Source of the DNA: Sulfobacillus thermotolerans
Lineage (GTDB): Bacteria > Bacillota > Sulfobacillia > Sulfobacillales > Sulfobacillaceae
Assembly (NCBI GenBank): GCA_002951815.1
Contig: CP019454.1
Location: 1,488,001 to 1,552,000 of the forward strand
Direction of reading: 5' to 3'
Length of the DNA stretch: 64,000 nucleotides
Translations under genes and position numbers: made by a program
In this document: positions 29,047 through 36,207 of the stretch, one piece after another
Numbering within the stretch: the first letter of the stretch is position 1
Layout of the letters: every line of letters begins with the position of its first letter
Notes under the pieces: model-generated
What the model was told of the DNA's origin: nothing
Database searches by the model: none
What the model saw: the letters and a program-made list of their open reading frames with translations, nothing else

Positions 29047-29370
29047 GTGGCTGTGGATGCTATGTATGCGTTTAAGGCCGAACTATATAAAACCTTGGGC
29101 CATCCTATCAGATTGCGGATTTTAGATCTCTTGCGAGATGGGGAGCGAAGTGTGTCTGAGCTGCAACAGGCTTTGAACATTGAGCCGTCGTCCGTTTCTC
29201 AGCAGTTGGCAGTACTACGTTCGCATCATCTGGTCGAATCGCGCAAAAGCGGCACGAATGTGTTTTACAGTGTTCCAGACGTGTTGATCTTTGAGTTGTT
29301 GGACATCGCGCGTTCGATATTTCAACATCAAGTCGACAGCATGAATTCGGTATTACGTTCTCAACCCTAG
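29047..29370 (+). CDS. ArsR-family winged-helix regulator
   Basis: A 107-residue regulator. The helix-turn-helix spans about residues 30-75 (RSVSELQQALNIEPSSVSQQLAVLR), preceded by the ArsR-typical LGHPIRLRILDLL. No CVC metal site is visible in the recognition helix, so it may sense something other than arsenite or soft metals. Start GTG 29047 follows AAAGGAGG. A dyad overlapping its -10 box is a likely autoregulatory operator. The hydrogenase-4-like operon begins 52 bases downstream in the same direction, so it may be read from the same promoter. Confidence 0.85.
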   Translation: MAVDAMYAFKAELYKTLGHPIRLRILDLLRDGERSVSELQQALNIEPSSVSQQLAVLRSHHLVESRKSGTNVFYSVPDVLIFELLDIARSIFQHQVDSMNSVLRSQP

Positions 29371-29422: not shown

Positions 29423-31309
29423 ATGTTAGTAATGGGGCTTTTACTGAGTGGACTCATGATAATGGTTCTTGCCTGGTATGAACAAGGGGCCCGAATCGCG
29501 TACATCGCCTGGAGTGTCGCCTTAGTTGTCGTGGCCCTTTTGGGGCTGTGCGATCCGACGTTATCGTGGCTTCAGGGGTCTCAATGGGCCCTAACCCCTT
29601 TGCGATCGTGGTTTCTTTTCCTATTAGGGGTGGTAGCGTTGGCCGCTTCTATTTACACCTTAGGTTACCGTTTGCATCATCCATTATGGAGCGCCTTTTG
29701 GACTCCGTTATTTTTGGTCAGCATGGTCGGGGTGTTAACAGCCCAAAATCTTTGGGGGTTCATGACGGCATGGGAAATCATGGCGTTGTCCTCTTTTTTC
29801 TTAGTCATATCGCACCCTGAACGACCCGGTGTCGTCAAGGCCGGATACGTTTATTTGGTCATGTCGCAAGTGAGCGCCATGCTCATTGTTTTAGGATTGT
29901 TGCTGATGGCCTATCATGTACAGTCGGGTGAGTTTGCAATGTGGGCGATAAAAGCCCATGAACTCTCTGCGCCTGAAAAAAATGTGATCTTTGGCCTCTT
30001 AACCGCAGGATTCGCCATCAAAAGCGGTGTGGCTCCTTTTCATATATGGCTTCCGCGGGCGCATCCGGCAGCGCCGGCACCGGTATCAAGTTTAATGTCG
30101 GGCGTCATGATTAAAGTGGCCGTTTTTGGCATTATACAGTTTGCCATTATGGATTTGGGCCCCACGAACGGCGCTTGGCCTATGGTCTTATTCGTCATTG
30201 GGGCTCTTTCAAGCCTCCTCGGGGTGTTATATGCCCTAATGGAAAGAGAGTTCAAGAAATTTTTAGCCTACAGCAGCATGGAAAACATGGGGATTATTTT
30301 TATGGCTCTAGGCATCATGGCGGCGGGACTCGACTGGCATCGCCCGAGTTTAGAGGTGATTGGCGGCGTGGGTGCCCTGCTTCATGCATTGAATCATGCC
30401 TTGTTTAAGAGTCAGTTGTTTTTGATAGCGGGTGGGGTAGAGCAGCACACAGGCCGTTTGACTATGGACCAATTAGGGGGCTTGATTCACACCTTGCCCG
30501 GCATTGGGCTGTCTTTCGTGATGGGAGCCATGGCAATCAGCGGCTTGCCGCCGTTCAATGGTTTTGTCAGCGAATGGCTCGTGTTGCGGGGGATGTTGTT
30601 GATGACCTTGCAATCTCCTGTGCTTGTTCGCGTGACAGCGTTGACTTTGGCCTTAATATTGGGGTTGATCGCAGCTTTGGCGGGCATGGCCTTTGTGAAG
30701 GCGGTGGGCGTTATGTTTCTTGGACAGGCGCGCCAGCCATTACCTTATACGTCTCTTCCACGAACCATGGGGGCGCCTGTTCTTGTGCTGGGCGTCATTT
30801 CATTGTTGTTAGGCATCTTTCCCGGACCTGTCATTGCATTCATCGCTCGACGTCTCTTGGCAACGCGGGCTAGCTCAGGCGCCCTATTGGTACCGGTTCA
30901 CGTCATAGTGGTTGCGAGTATGCTCCTTCTGGGGATTGGTATCGCAGCGATTACCTCACGCGTTTGGGATGCACCGGAAGTGCCGCGCTGGGGAGGGGGG
31001 CGCCAAACGACTTCGGCTATGCAATTTTCTGCGGCCTCTTTTACCAAGGCGATTCGAACCACTTTTGCGGTGATTTACCGGCCCCATCGCCATCTCGCCC
31101 GGTTGGGGCCCTATCGTGAGGATTTTCCTGAACGCATTGTCTATCAAGGGGGAACAACGCCAACGTGGGAACGGTATCTATATCGACCTGTGTCTCAAGC
31201 TATTTGGCGCATCGCCCAATATAGTACCCGGGTACAAGCGGGGCCTGTCCGACTGTACTTGACGTATTTGCTGGTGACTATCGGGGTCCTGTTGCTGACG
31301 CTGCGCTAA
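29423..31309 (+). CDS. hyfB: Hydrogenase-4 component B-like membrane subunit (HyfB, NuoL/Mrp antiporter-like)
   Basis: A 628-residue antiporter-like subunit with about fourteen helices and a long C-terminal part. Conserved blocks include WEIMALSSFFLV (near 113-124), KSGVAPFHIWLPRAHPAAPAPVS (around 195-217, containing the buried lysine) and LHALNHALFKSQLFL (around 321-335). It should form an ion-translocation channel in a complex-I-like machine. The ribosome site is weak. It begins the six-gene hyf-like operon. Confidence 0.85.
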   Translation: MLVMGLLLSGLMIMVLAWYEQGARIAYIAWSVALVVVALLGLCDPTLSWLQGSQWALTPLRSWFLFLLGVVALAASIYTLGYRLHHPLWSAFWTPLFLVSMVGVLTAQNLWGFMTAWEIMALSSFFLVISHPERPGVVKAGYVYLVMSQVSAMLIVLGLLLMAYHVQSGEFAMWAIKAHELSAPEKNVIFGLLTAGFAIKSGVAPFHIWLPRAHPAAPAPVSSLMSGVMIKVAVFGIIQFAIMDLGPTNGAWPMVLFVIGALSSLLGVLYALMEREFKKFLAYSSMENMGIIFMALGIMAAGLDWHRPSLEVIGGVGALLHALNHALFKSQLFLIAGGVEQHTGRLTMDQLGGLIHTLPGIGLSFVMGAMAISGLPPFNGFVSEWLVLRGMLLMTLQSPVLVRVTALTLALILGLIAALAGMAFVKAVGVMFLGQARQPLPYTSLPRTMGAPVLVLGVISLLLGIFPGPVIAFIARRLLATRASSGALLVPVHVIVVASMLLLGIGIAAITSRVWDAPEVPRWGGGRQTTSAMQFSAASFTKAIRTTFAVIYRPHRHLARLGPYREDFPERIVYQGGTTPTWERYLYRPVSQAIWRIAQYSTRVQAGPVRLYLTYLLVTIGVLLLTLR

Positions 31310-31324
31310 GGAAGGGGACAAATC

Positions 31325-32239
31325 ATGGAGTGGTGGGGACAAGCAATCAGCATGGCCGCATCGATCGCCCTAGCGCCGTTGTTGGTAGGCCTCAGTCAGA
31401 CGACGAAGGCGCGAATTCAAGGGCGCATGGGCCCGTCTGTGTTCCAAGCGTACCGCATTTTGTGGAAGACTTGGCATAAAGAAACGACCGTACCCCAAGA
31501 CAGTTCCTGGATATTTCGTTTGGCTCCGAGCGTTAATGTGGCTACTATGCTCGTCATCGTTACTATGCTGCCGTGGACGGGAAAATTGCCATCTTCTTGG
31601 CCGCATAATGCGCTTGTTCTATTCTTTTTGCTGGCAGTGGAACGATTTTGGAGCGCCTTGGCCGGCATGGATAGTGCGGGAGCCTTTGGCGGGTTGGGAG
31701 CTAGCCGAGTGTCAACGGTGGGAAGTGGCATTGAGCCTGCCCTGTTAGCGGCATTTGGCGTGCTCTGGGCCGTGAGCGGTCATACCGCCATCGCGCCGTT
31801 AGCCCCTTGGCTACGACACCAAGCCTTAGGTATTCTGCCTTGGATATTGGCCGCATCGAGCTATGTGCTGGTACTGCTAGCTGAAACAGGACGCTTGCCG
31901 GTGGATAATCCCGATACCCATTTAGAGCTAACGATGATGCACGAAGCGACCGTATTGGAATATAATGGGCGATTTCTTGCGGAGCAGCAAATGGCTGGTG
32001 CGCTCAAATTCACTGCCCTTATCGGATTAGGATGGATTTATTTAGGCCCGGTGATGTCCTCTGTGTGGGCGAACCTTTTCATGCGTGTTGGGGAATTAGC
32101 CGTTACGAGTATGGCGTTAGGATGGGCAGAGAGTCGTTTTGTGAAATTACGGTATTTTCAATTGCCAACGTATTTTGCCATGGCGACCGGGGTGGGACTA
32201 TTGGCATTTTATCTTGTGGCGTCGGGGAGCGTGAGCTAA
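31325..32239 (+). CDS. hyfC: Hydrogenase-4 component C-like membrane subunit (HyfC/NuoH)
   Basis: A 304-residue membrane subunit of the NuoH/HycD family, which connects the membrane arm with the catalytic module. The family signature RLPVDNPDTHLELTMMHEA lies near residues 194-212. About eight helices are visible. GGAAGGGG stands before the ATG. It overlaps nothing, with 15 bases after hyfB. Confidence 0.88.
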   Translation: MEWWGQAISMAASIALAPLLVGLSQTTKARIQGRMGPSVFQAYRILWKTWHKETTVPQDSSWIFRLAPSVNVATMLVIVTMLPWTGKLPSSWPHNALVLFFLLAVERFWSALAGMDSAGAFGGLGASRVSTVGSGIEPALLAAFGVLWAVSGHTAIAPLAPWLRHQALGILPWILAASSYVLVLLAETGRLPVDNPDTHLELTMMHEATVLEYNGRFLAEQQMAGALKFTALIGLGWIYLGPVMSSVWANLFMRVGELAVTSMALGWAESRFVKLRYFQLPTYFAMATGVGLLAFYLVASGSVS

Positions 32240-32240
32240 G

Positions 32241-32864
32241 GTGGCAACCGCGGGGCTATTGGTCTTTTTGGCGGCGGGTGGTTTGTTGTGGTCTCGCAAT
32301 ATTGCTCGTGGGATTTGGTTTTTGGTTTTCGAGGGAGGAGCACTGGGGGTCATGGTTTGGACATCCGGCCCATTGACCCTAGCGGTCGCGGTGATTGGGG
32401 CGGTCACTATGATAGTGAAGGCAGGTCTGATTCCTTATGTCATGCATCGCGTGATGCATAGGTGGCCCCAAGAATTTCGCCAAGATTCTTCTTTGCCTCT
32501 TTGGGCCTATGGCATGGCGGCCCTGTTGGTATTAGCGGTTACGCATGCGATGCATCTATTAGCGTCTACTGGAATTATGTTACATCAGGCGCTCTTTTTC
32601 TATGGATTGGCCACGATCCATTGGGGTCTATTAATGGTTGTGAGTCGCAGGCACGTCCTCTCGCAAGTCGCCGCCTTGGTTAGTGTCGAAAACGGGTTGG
32701 TTATCTTGGCTGCCTCTGTGGCGGGGGCATTGCCCACCTTTATGGAGTTGGGTATGTTAGGAGACTTACTTGTTGCGGCGGGGTTATTGGTTTGGATGAG
32801 CTGGCGCATTCATCATCACCTTCAATCCACCGATGTGGCGACCTTGAAGCAGCTAAGGGGGTAA
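32241..32864 (+). CDS. hyfE: Hydrogenase-4 component E-like membrane subunit (HyfE)
   Basis: A 207-residue, six-to-seven-helix protein of the HyfE family (NuoK-like core with extra helices). The buried acidic residue typical of this subunit is in VSVENGLVILAAS near residue 150. It starts at GTG 32241, one base after the hyfC stop. It should lie between the antiporter-like subunits. Confidence 0.78.
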   Translation: MATAGLLVFLAAGGLLWSRNIARGIWFLVFEGGALGVMVWTSGPLTLAVAVIGAVTMIVKAGLIPYVMHRVMHRWPQEFRQDSSLPLWAYGMAALLVLAVTHAMHLLASTGIMLHQALFFYGLATIHWGLLMVVSRRHVLSQVAALVSVENGLVILAASVAGALPTFMELGMLGDLLVAAGLLVWMSWRIHHHLQSTDVATLKQLRG

Positions 32865-32868
32865 CAAC

Positions 32869-34206
32869 ATGGTCATATGGGACGGGCTAGGCCCCGTGGG
32901 CGTAATGGTTTTCGTGCTGGCGGCGAAGGGGCCAAACGTGCATAAACTGCCCCGGCAGGTCGCTTGGTGGGCGACAATGACATGCCTTGCGACGGCAGGA
33001 CTTTCGTTTCCGGCCATATGGCGGGGACAGGATACAGCTATTTTAGAGGGAATAGTGAATCTAATCGCCGTCAGCAGTGCCTGGGATAGTGTGATATGGC
33101 GGCGTGAGCACCAGGCGATCTCCTTGCGCGCTTATTATTGGTGGTGGTCGTTGTTTTGGCTATCGCTGAACGTCATTGCGTGGTCGCCAAATCTCGCTGT
33201 GTCGTGGTTGGCGATTGAATTTTCCACCTTAGCGTCGGGGGCTTTAATCGTACTGGGCAATACGCCGCAAGCGCTGGAAGCAGCATGGAAGTATATTGTT
33301 ATTGCATCGGTCGGCTTAGCCTTGGGACTCATGGGGATTATTTTCATCTATGGAAGTTTGAGATCGCAAGGACTGGGATGGCAGACGCTGTCATATGTCA
33401 ATTTATGGCGGCATCATGCCCATATCGCAGAGATAATACGGGCGGTTGCGACGTTGTTGGTTGTGGGGGGGATCGGCACCAAGGTCGGCTTAGTACCCTT
33501 TCACACGTGGTTGCCGGATGCTCACTCAGAAGCCCCATCGCCGGTCAGTGGATTGCTGTCGGGCGTGCTTCTAGGGCTCTGTCTTATCACTCTTGTACGT
33601 TTTATTCAGGCGGTTCCCGTACCCTCAGAAAGTGTGTTGTCAGGTCCCCATCTGCTTTTGGGCTTTGGCATGGCCTCAGTGGCTATGGGGGCACTTGCGC
33701 TGTTTGTCCAGCACGACATCAAACGCTTGTTGGCGTATTCAAGCATCGAACAAATGGGCATTATGGCGATTGGATTTGGCTTGGGCACGCCGCTTGCCGA
33801 AACGGCGGCGCTGTGGCAGTACGCGTTTCATGCCGTGATTAAGTCCACGCTATTTTTCACCAGTGGCCATTTAACAGAGCGGTATCATTCCAAGAACCTT
33901 GGTCATATCACGGATCTGGCGCGTCAGCATCCAAAAATGGCCGGGCTTTGGGCGGTGGGTATCTTGGCCTTAGCAGGCCTGCCGCCCTTAGGGCTGGCGT
34001 ATAGTGAATGGATGATACTTTGGGCCTTATGGCAATCCCACGCACTTTGGGCCTTAGTGACGATGAGTACCGCGCTTGTCTTGACTTTTACGGCATTGCT
34101 GTACCATCTGTTGAAAGGGCTGTGGGGAGGCTTGGAATCATGGCCACAACTTAAAGCCAACACCCCAGGAGGTAAGACGCTTGCAGAAACCTCAGCGGAG
34201 ATGTGA
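32869..34206 (+). CDS. hyfF: Hydrogenase-4 component F-like membrane subunit (HyfF, NuoN/L-like)
   Basis: A 445-residue antiporter-like subunit. It repeats the conserved block KVGLVPFHTWLPDAHSEAPSPVS (around 205-227) and the helix-eight region YAFHAVIKSTLFFTSGHL near 322-339. It gives the complex a second ion channel. Its 3' end overlaps the next gene by 26 bases, and the ribosome site for that gene lies inside it. Confidence 0.85.
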   Translation: MVIWDGLGPVGVMVFVLAAKGPNVHKLPRQVAWWATMTCLATAGLSFPAIWRGQDTAILEGIVNLIAVSSAWDSVIWRREHQAISLRAYYWWWSLFWLSLNVIAWSPNLAVSWLAIEFSTLASGALIVLGNTPQALEAAWKYIVIASVGLALGLMGIIFIYGSLRSQGLGWQTLSYVNLWRHHAHIAEIIRAVATLLVVGGIGTKVGLVPFHTWLPDAHSEAPSPVSGLLSGVLLGLCLITLVRFIQAVPVPSESVLSGPHLLLGFGMASVAMGALALFVQHDIKRLLAYSSIEQMGIMAIGFGLGTPLAETAALWQYAFHAVIKSTLFFTSGHLTERYHSKNLGHITDLARQHPKMAGLWAVGILALAGLPPLGLAYSEWMILWALWQSHALWALVTMSTALVLTFTALLYHLLKGLWGGLESWPQLKANTPGGKTLAETSAEM

Positions 34207-35650
34207 ACCGGCCCAGTGGATCCAGGCCAATGAACACGCAAAGCAGGCGAAGAGCCATCTGTTAGCGTTAACAGCCTATTCGGACAGGCGTCTTCGTAGT
34301 GATTGGCTGAAGGAAGACGGCGATATGCTCACCTATGAGGTGGACGTGGCAGACGGGACCTTTCCCTCCTTAACCCCAAGTCTGCCCGAAGTGTCATGGG
34401 ATGAGCGAGAAATTCATGATCTATTTGGGTATATCCCACAAGGGCATCCGGATATGCGCCCGTTGATACGAACCCCGCGGTGGCCCCGTAAATTTTTCCC
34501 TATGATTATGGAAGCACCCCAGTTTGTGCCCGGTGACGAGTGTGACGTAGGCAATCCACCACGCGTTGTCGACGGCGATGGCGTTACCATCATGACCGTC
34601 GGACCCACGCATGCAGGCATTATTGAATCGGGGCATTTTGTGTTTAGTATCATGGGCGAAAATGTTTTGCATTTAGACTTGCATTTGTTTCAGAATCACC
34701 GGGGGGTGGAGTCTTGGCTTCAGGGCTTGCCGGTAACCTCCGTGGCAGCTGTTGTGAGCCGTATTTGTGGAGCCGATACCGTGTCTCATCAAGTTAATTG
34801 GACCATGGCCGTGGAACACCTCGCAGGCCAAGAACCTCGTCCCGAGGTCGTACAGCAACGTCTTTTGCTGTTAGAATCTGAACGCGTCCTCAACCATCTC
34901 AATGATTTAGCGCAAATTCCTGCTGGGGTGGGCTTTGCTGTAGCCAACCAGCGGGCTATGGCCATGAAAGAAATGTGGCAGCGTGCTATGCACCAATTAA
35001 CGGGTCACCGCTTACTCTTTGACACCGTGTCGCCGCACAGAACCGTTCGCATCGAACCGTCTTTGCTTTTGACCCTGATTGCTGAAATGAGGCAGGTCTG
35101 GGCCCCGTGGCGCAAATGGGTGGAAGGCCACCATGGATTTCAAGACCGAATGGCAGGGACAGGCGTGGTGACGCAGGAAGAAGCGTGGCGGCTTGGAGCC
35201 CAAGGAGTGGTGGCCAGAGCGTCGGGCTTGGGCTTTGATGCCCGTTTGTTGACTCCTGGGTATGGCGATTTAGACTGGATCCCTGCGTGCGAATCCCGAG
35301 GTGATGTCGCAGCGCGGTTTCGGGTCAGACTTCATGAAGTTGAGGAATCGTGGCGTATTCTCGAACAGGTAGCGCGTAATCTCATAGGCGCACCGGATCC
35401 AGAGTCGTCTGGGGTGGGGGTCATATTGCCTGACTTAAGTGGCGATATCACGACGTATACCGAGTCTCCACATGGGTTGAATGCCCATGTGATCTCCTTA
35501 GACCATGGGCGTGTGCGCCGTTATCATGTGCGCTCAGGCACTTTTCGCAATTGGCCGCTTATGGTCAAGGCGGTGTCAGGCGGCGCGGTGGGTGACTTTC
35601 CCTTGATCAACAAGAGTTTCGAGTTGTGTTATAGCTGTACAGATCGATAG
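34181..35650 (+). CDS. hyfG: Hydrogenase-4 large-subunit-like protein (HyfG; NuoC-NuoD fusion) with incomplete NiFe site
   Basis: A 489-residue fusion: residues 1-105 are NuoC-like (SWDEREIHDLFG, GHPDMRPL), the rest is the NuoD/NiFe large-subunit fold. Active [NiFe] enzymes have RxCGxC near the N-terminus and DPCxxC at the C-terminus. Here the first reads RICGAD, keeping C196 but with Asp199 in place of the second cysteine; H203 is kept. The second reads ELCYSCTDR, keeping C483 and C486, and the protein ends there without the usual cleaved tail. Three of four metal ligands remain, so it may not be a hydrogenase. TTG start 34181 has AGGAGG eight bases before. Confidence 0.85.
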   Translation: MQKPQRRCEPAQWIQANEHAKQAKSHLLALTAYSDRRLRSDWLKEDGDMLTYEVDVADGTFPSLTPSLPEVSWDEREIHDLFGYIPQGHPDMRPLIRTPRWPRKFFPMIMEAPQFVPGDECDVGNPPRVVDGDGVTIMTVGPTHAGIIESGHFVFSIMGENVLHLDLHLFQNHRGVESWLQGLPVTSVAAVVSRICGADTVSHQVNWTMAVEHLAGQEPRPEVVQQRLLLLESERVLNHLNDLAQIPAGVGFAVANQRAMAMKEMWQRAMHQLTGHRLLFDTVSPHRTVRIEPSLLLTLIAEMRQVWAPWRKWVEGHHGFQDRMAGTGVVTQEEAWRLGAQGVVARASGLGFDARLLTPGYGDLDWIPACESRGDVAARFRVRLHEVEESWRILEQVARNLIGAPDPESSGVGVILPDLSGDITTYTESPHGLNAHVISLDHGRVRRYHVRSGTFRNWPLMVKAVSGGAVGDFPLINKSFELCYSCTDR

Positions 35651-35673: not shown

Positions 35674-36207
35674 ATGGGCCACCATTCACATTCACGGTCG
35701 TTGCAATGCCGCCATGTTGATGCGGGGAGCTGCAACGGTTGCGAGCAAGAACTAAACGCTTTGACGGGGTCCTTTTACGATATGCAGCATGTGGGACTGG
35801 ACATCGTCGCCTCTCCACGCCACGCCGATGCCTTGATTGTAACAGGGCCCGTCTCTGATACGATGATGACGCCGCTCAGAGCAGTATGGGCCGCGTTGCC
35901 GCGTCCCAAACGGTTGGTGGCATTGGGCGATTGTGCTGCAGGCTACGGGGTGTTTCAAGGAGCCTATGCGACGCGGGGGGGAGTCGAAGGCAGCATGCGT
36001 CCACCCGATGTTGTCATTCGGGGATGCCCGCCAACCCCCGCCGAGATTCTGCAAGGGCTTACGGCTGTTATGGATACATTATTGGAACCGTCTTCATTCA
36101 TTGATAGTCAGCCCTCGGCCGACTTGGTCGAGGCGCGCCGGATTCCGCCGCTTGAGCAACCACGCGGTGACCAAACCCCAGGCGATGTAGGCGAACGTGA
36201 GATATAA
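35674..36207 (+). CDS. hyfI: Hydrogenase-4 small-subunit-like protein (HyfI/NuoB)
   Basis: A 177-residue NuoB-family subunit. The four ligands of the proximal [4Fe-4S] cluster are C20 and C23 (GSCNGCEQEL), C87 (GDC) and C118 (GCPPTP). The family core ends near residue 145; about 30 further polar residues follow, and this tail overlaps the convergent APC permease gene by 114 bases. GGAAGGAG precedes the ATG. No ferredoxin-like HyfA or HyfH gene accompanies it, so how electrons reach this cluster is unclear. Confidence 0.85.
   Translation: MGHHSHSRSLQCRHVDAGSCNGCEQELNALTGSFYDMQHVGLDIVASPRHADALIVTGPVSDTMMTPLRAVWAALPRPKRLVALGDCAAGYGVFQGAYATRGGVEGSMRPPDVVIRGCPPTPAEILQGLTAVMDTLLEPSSFIDSQPSADLVEARRIPPLEQPRGDQTPGDVGEREI

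Follow-up and report, generated by a model that had tools for sequence, protein, structure and literature searches.

The window analysed here, a 64,000-nucleotide stretch of the Sulfobacillus thermotolerans genome, contains seven plus-strand genes separated by gaps of at most 52 bp (Table 1). Six of them make up a hyfB-hyfC-hyfE-hyfF-hyfG-hyfI operon and are preceded by a gene for an ArsR-type regulator. The closest solved structure to this regulator is Rv0081 of Mycobacterium tuberculosis (E=4e-18), and an ArsR-type gene is found at the same place, before hyfB, in 16 of 26 related loci. In M. tuberculosis the Rv0081-Rv0087 genes constitute the same kind of operon; the window operon is likewise headed by an Rv0081-like ArsR protein.

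Table 1. Features of the hyf-like operon (positions in the window)
Feature	Position	Strand	Evidence
ArsR-family regulator without cysteines, first operon gene	29047..29370	+	NCBIfam HTH_metalloreg; PDB 6jmi
hyfB-like antiporter subunit	29423..31309	+	NF005086 E=2.8e-143 (below curated cut-off); PF00361
hyfC-like membrane anchor (NuoH/ND1 family)	31325..32239	+	PF00146 E=5e-26
hyfE-like membrane subunit	32241..32864	+	NF008556 E=5.5e-14 (below curated cut-off)
hyfF-like antiporter subunit	32869..34206	+	PF00361; alignment
hyfG-like large subunit, NuoC-like N-terminal domain fused to NuoD/hydrogenase large-subunit domain	34181..35650	+	
N-terminal ligand motif CGAD (C196, D199)	34766..34777	+	translation, alignment
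C196 codon (TGT)	34766..34768	+	
D199 codon (GAT)	34775..34777	+	
H431 replacing canopy Arg (HycE R478), co-fixed with D199	35471..35473	+	alignment
C-terminal motif ELCYSCTDR (E481, C483, C486), then stop	35621..35647	+	translation, alignment
C483 codon (TGT)	35627..35629	+	
C486 codon (TGT)	35636..35638	+	
hyfI-like small subunit, no ferredoxin domain	35674..36207	+	PF01058; alignment with HycG

The alignments show that most of the key Glu and Lys residues of the antiporter subunits are retained. HyfB keeps E118, K200, K231 and E384, aligned with E144, K234, K265 and E407 of NuoM; HyfF keeps E117, K205 and E380 and is missing the Lys of TM8, as is HyfF of Escherichia coli. The small subunit HyfI carries the hydrogenase-type cysteines of the proximal cluster (SCNGC, DC, GC). 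Its CxxC is like that of HycG and is distinct from the tandem CC of the NuoB-type cluster, which reads ACC in NuoB of the same genome; the S. thermotolerans genome encodes two further, separate complex-I-type clusters outside the window (L108 and L109), one of them with NuoE/F/G. In three Chloroflexi loci (L053, L054, L067) HyfI is without some of the proximal-cluster cysteines (GSDNS..DWE, GDPP) and HyfG keeps all four Ni-type cysteines. The operon includes no ferredoxin-like subunit of the HycB/HycF type, and comparison of related loci found no conserved electron-donor gene beside the operon in the clade described below. GlpABC-like genes occur at three loci only, immediately 3' of the operon (L023, L025, L044), and an FMN reductase gene at three, the window included.

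The hyfG-like gene encodes a protein of 489 amino acids. It has a TTG start with an AGGAGGT ribosome-binding site just 5' of it, and its start region overlaps hyfF by 26 bp. A phmmer search with this protein gave E. coli HycE as the top match (1.7e-46), followed by MbhL and complex I. The N-terminal ligand motif reads RICGAD at residues 194–199, and the C-terminal motif at residues 481–489 is directly followed by a TAG stop codon. Instead of the four ligand cysteines in two CxxC pairs that characterize group 4 hydrogenases, HyfG has C196, D199, C483 and C486, aligned with C241, C244, C531 and C534 of HycE. The translation and the HycE alignment thus bear out the initial annotation, which described a relative of group 4 hydrogenases that keeps three of the four NiFe cysteines and has Asp in the fourth place. 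In established NiFe structures, the second of the two N-terminal Cys is a bridge between Ni and Fe, hence the ligand missing from HyfG is a bridging one. The absence of a cleavable tail had also been pointed out. The stop does follow the motif directly, but this is not special: all 54 four-Cys relatives end right after CY(S/A)CxDR or DL, and a tail is present in HycE and HyfG of E. coli. Tail loss as an argument against a hydrogenase was dropped because the four-Cys relatives lack the tail too.

The Asp at position 199 is a conserved feature. A scan of 84,980 species yielded 488 confirmed loci, and residue 199, read in the best 80 of the 488, is Asp in 26, Cys in 54 and no other residue in any of these. 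Among 40 genomes related to that of the window, 12 have an ortholog, with 54–63% identity, and every one of these has Asp199. The complete Asp clade has 30 members from 30 distinct genomes, with 49–63% identity, and CxxD takes the place of the N-terminal CxxC of group 4f in all 30. It is formed mostly by Sulfobacillaceae and Actinomycetota from acidic sites; among the members are Sulfobacillus, one Alicyclobacillaceae isolate and Actinomycetota MAGs, and the record names refer to mine and solfatara sites. Sequencing error or decay at D199 is rejected by the invariance of Asp in 30 sequences. Neither such an error nor random residues in relatives, the two outcomes named in the initial annotation as fatal to its reading, was found, since residue 199 is conserved as Asp.

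The nearest outgroups are 54 HydDB group-4f-like sequences, all of them with Cys199. In a tree of the quick type, with SH-aLRT values as support and no bootstrap, the Asp sequences make one clade (SH-aLRT 100) that is nested inside the four-Cys sequences and requires one change of state. This places the clade among 4f-like sequences, the 4f reference (L075) being identified by organism and gene set. In the alignment, the Asp and Cys groups have fixed differences at positions 168, 199, 206, 237, 266, 281, 431 and others, including R431H, A/G206N and R/Q/K168H in the Cys to Asp group direction. The canopy Arg has thus become His431; the canopy Asp is Glu. C196, C483 and C486 are kept throughout the clade, and H203 mostly so. 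A second local clade of Ehr type, from the same family in Sulfobacillales (L014–L020), has lost all four ligand positions and ends in VADxDR.

HypCD assembles the Fe(CN)2CO unit and transfers it to the apo-hydrogenase (PMC11565642). Cells that lack HypD do not form this unit. HypD is absent from 22 of the 30 D199 genomes, a count to be read with the caveat that gaps in MAGs can mimic HypD absence; RecA, used as a control, was detected in 47 of 50 genomes. In the remaining eight D199 genomes, the HypD gene is never more than about 5 kb from the gene of a different [NiFe] large subunit. HypA (above cut-off) is also missing from seven HypD-less D199 genomes that are 93–99% complete (G001, G010, G017, G021, G022, G023, G024), and in another D199 genome, G019, HypA is present and HypD absent. 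The S. thermotolerans genome encodes HypA-F; these hyp genes are part of the cluster of a group-1-type hydrogenase, at a distance of about 1.27 Mb. The sister clade with four Cys and the ending CYACxDR (hereafter CYACC; L048–L052, L055, L057, L061, L064) has HypD in none of nine genomes, and the remaining four-Cys genomes have it in 29 of 44. HypD absence is therefore not specific to the Asp form, because HypD is patchy among the four-Cys relatives as well. The Asp clade and its near neighbours (HypD in 8 of 47) differ from the rest with a Fisher p = 2e-6, computed on genomes that are related and so not independent. On this pattern, reliance on the NiFe cofactor may have been lost before the Cys-to-Asp change.

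The AF2 model of the window HyfG has a mean pLDDT of 84 and a pTM of 0.87. It matches HycE (7z0s_E) with a VIA Z of 40.2 over 469 residues and the 49-kDa subunits of complex I with Z of 36–38. The model does not allow the site geometry to be judged because loop 142–146 and the last residues have low confidence. In the alignment, the proton-path residues shared by FHL and complex I are kept (H239, R346, E386), as is the acidic β1-β2 residue E149, which is absent in complex I; the roles of these residues have been described (PMC9474812). The His and Tyr of the complex I quinone site (H38 and Y87 of Thermus thermophilus Nqo4) correspond to I148 and G197. The shortened loop of the three-Cys proximal cluster of MBS is absent too, HyfI being aligned with HycG in this region without gaps. 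Thus neither of the known pocket chemistries can be simply transferred to HyfG. The retained proton-path residues, cluster ligands and pump residues would fit a proton-coupled oxidoreductase.

HydDB group 4f is one of the closest known systems. We take L075 to be the published 4f enzyme of Candidatus Jettenia ecosi, on the basis of organism and gene set. HypD was not found for L075 despite two published [NiFe] hydrogenases in this organism, possibly due to an assembly gap. The membrane hydrogenase of Ca. J. ecosi was published as group 4f (PMC6828613), and the 4f complexes of this organism and of Desulfosporosinus have in common with the window complex the six genes and a tail-less ending of the KSFELCYSCxDR type (PMC6828613, PMC7248197). 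The window HyfG has about 36–46% identity to group 4f proteins and falls in the same larger clade; it differs from them in having Asp199 instead of Cys, His431 instead of Arg, and Asn206. In Desulfosporosinus (L069, L070, L086, L101), genes for a sigma-54 activator, an aldehyde ferredoxin oxidoreductase and MoeA/ThiF-like proteins adjoin the 4f operon. HycE of E. coli FHL-1 (7z0s) and HyfG of Hyd-4 share with the window HyfG the fold, the domain fusion, the H/R/E proton path and the CYSCTDR motif. Unlike the window protein, HycE has four Cys, DPC in place of ELC and the canopy Arg; its motif is followed by a tail, and the protein works with the ferredoxin subunits HycB and HycF. MBS of Pyrococcus furiosus (MbsL/MbsJ) is also derived from a hydrogenase and has partly lost the Ni ligands (PMC7684303); it has two Cys and a three-Cys proximal cluster, whereas the window complex combines three Cys and one Asp with an ordinary four-Cys cluster motif. 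Justice et al. (2014) described Sulfobacillus group-4 complexes without NiFe motifs, called them Ehr and gave their function as unknown (PMC4378227). These complexes resemble that of the window in six syntenic genes similar to complex I and FHL and in a large subunit without full NiFe motifs; in all likelihood they are identical with it or sister to it. The motifs are said there to be lacking, and no conserved CxxD/CxxC form is described.

An operon with complex-I-like subunits and a large subunit without intact NiFe motifs (RICGAD) is what defines an Ehr (energy-converting hydrogenase-related) complex. The window complex is of this type. In the reading that we consider likely, HyfG is an Ehr-type large subunit that stems from a four-cysteine, group-4f-like ancestor, and the Asp form would no longer build NiFe(CN)2CO or handle H2. 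The hydrogenase pocket would have been remade once, in a lineage composed mainly of acidophiles, into the conserved C196/D199/C483/C486 site, with simultaneous changes to H431, N206 and H168. The proximal [4Fe-4S] cluster of HyfI, with its four Cys, would carry electrons towards or away from a substrate bound in the pocket, and this reaction would be coupled to proton movement through HyfB and HyfF. The initial annotation had proposed an enzyme with a different metal site. A different site is supported by the fixation of D199 with H431 and N206 and by the lack of HypD in most carriers; this support does not extend to the word metal. Speaking against the Ehr reading, the residues kept (C196, C483, C486 and mostly H203) might point to a surviving hydrogenase-like metal centre.

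Two refinements of the Ehr reading differ in what the pocket holds. The pocket could be metal-free, as in MBS and complex I, a cavity by the proximal cluster in which D199, H431 and the Cys residues serve proton transfer or bind a substrate, e.g. a quinone or a sulfur compound. We regard this as a real possibility that falls short of an even chance. MBS and complex I both function after the loss of Ni ligands (PMC7684303), the FHL/complex I proton path is preserved, and the related clade L014–L020 persists without any of the four ligands. However, this form of the pocket has neither the complex I quinone residues nor the MBS-type cluster loop, and it leaves four strictly conserved ligand-type residues unexplained.

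Alternatively, and only tentatively, three Cys and Asp, perhaps with H431, could hold a single metal (Fe, Zn or Ni) as a redox or Lewis-acid site that replaces NiFe(CN)2CO. All four ligand positions are invariant in diverged sequences and occupied by metal-binding residues, and a particular residue, Asp, was fixed together with the canopy Arg to His change. Examples of Cys3Asp sites exist among other metalloproteins, which counts for such a metal. On the other side, no metal is part of the AF2 model, which is of low confidence at the C-terminus, and the two leftover Cys of MBS are not needed for catalysis (PMC7684303). In a bolder version, which we consider rather unlikely, NiFe(CN)2CO would have given way, within a proton-pumping complex, to Cys3Asp (with His431) as a novel catalytic metal site, and the sister four-Cys "4f" proteins from genomes that lack HypD would likewise be non-hydrogenases with another cofactor.

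H2 chemistry by the Asp-form complex is unlikely. A working [NiFe] hydrogenase with Asp in place of one bridging Cys could invoke the three Cys, H203, E149 and the FHL proton path, as well as the HypA-F set of the window genome. Yet the lost ligand is a bridging one, the canopy Arg is His and the canopy Asp is Glu; since HypD is missing from most carriers and lies beside another hydrogenase in the others, such an enzyme is very unlikely. Least probable of all is that the Asp form stands between hydrogenase and complex I in evolution, the intermediate that the initial annotation considered: three of the four ligands are kept and MBS illustrates a two-Cys state (PMC7684303), but the tree rejects a step towards complex I, the Asp form having arisen once inside the four-Cys clade, away from NuoD, as a derived side branch. 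It also retains E149, which complex I does not have, and is without the quinone His and Tyr of complex I.

The literature searched mentions neither the conserved CxxD/CxxC variant nor its origin in one event, nor the canopy His fixed along with it, nor the HypD pattern; as far as we checked, all of these are new, and priority is not certain. Few examples are known of a NiFe pocket turned into another pocket, such as that for polysulfide in MBS or quinone in complex I. The Asp clade adds another independent and stably conserved outcome of such a change, one that is testable by mutation of a single residue. The HypD data also call for caution: annotation of a member of this family as a hydrogenase, even with all four Cys as in the CYACC clade, is no proof of H2 metabolism.
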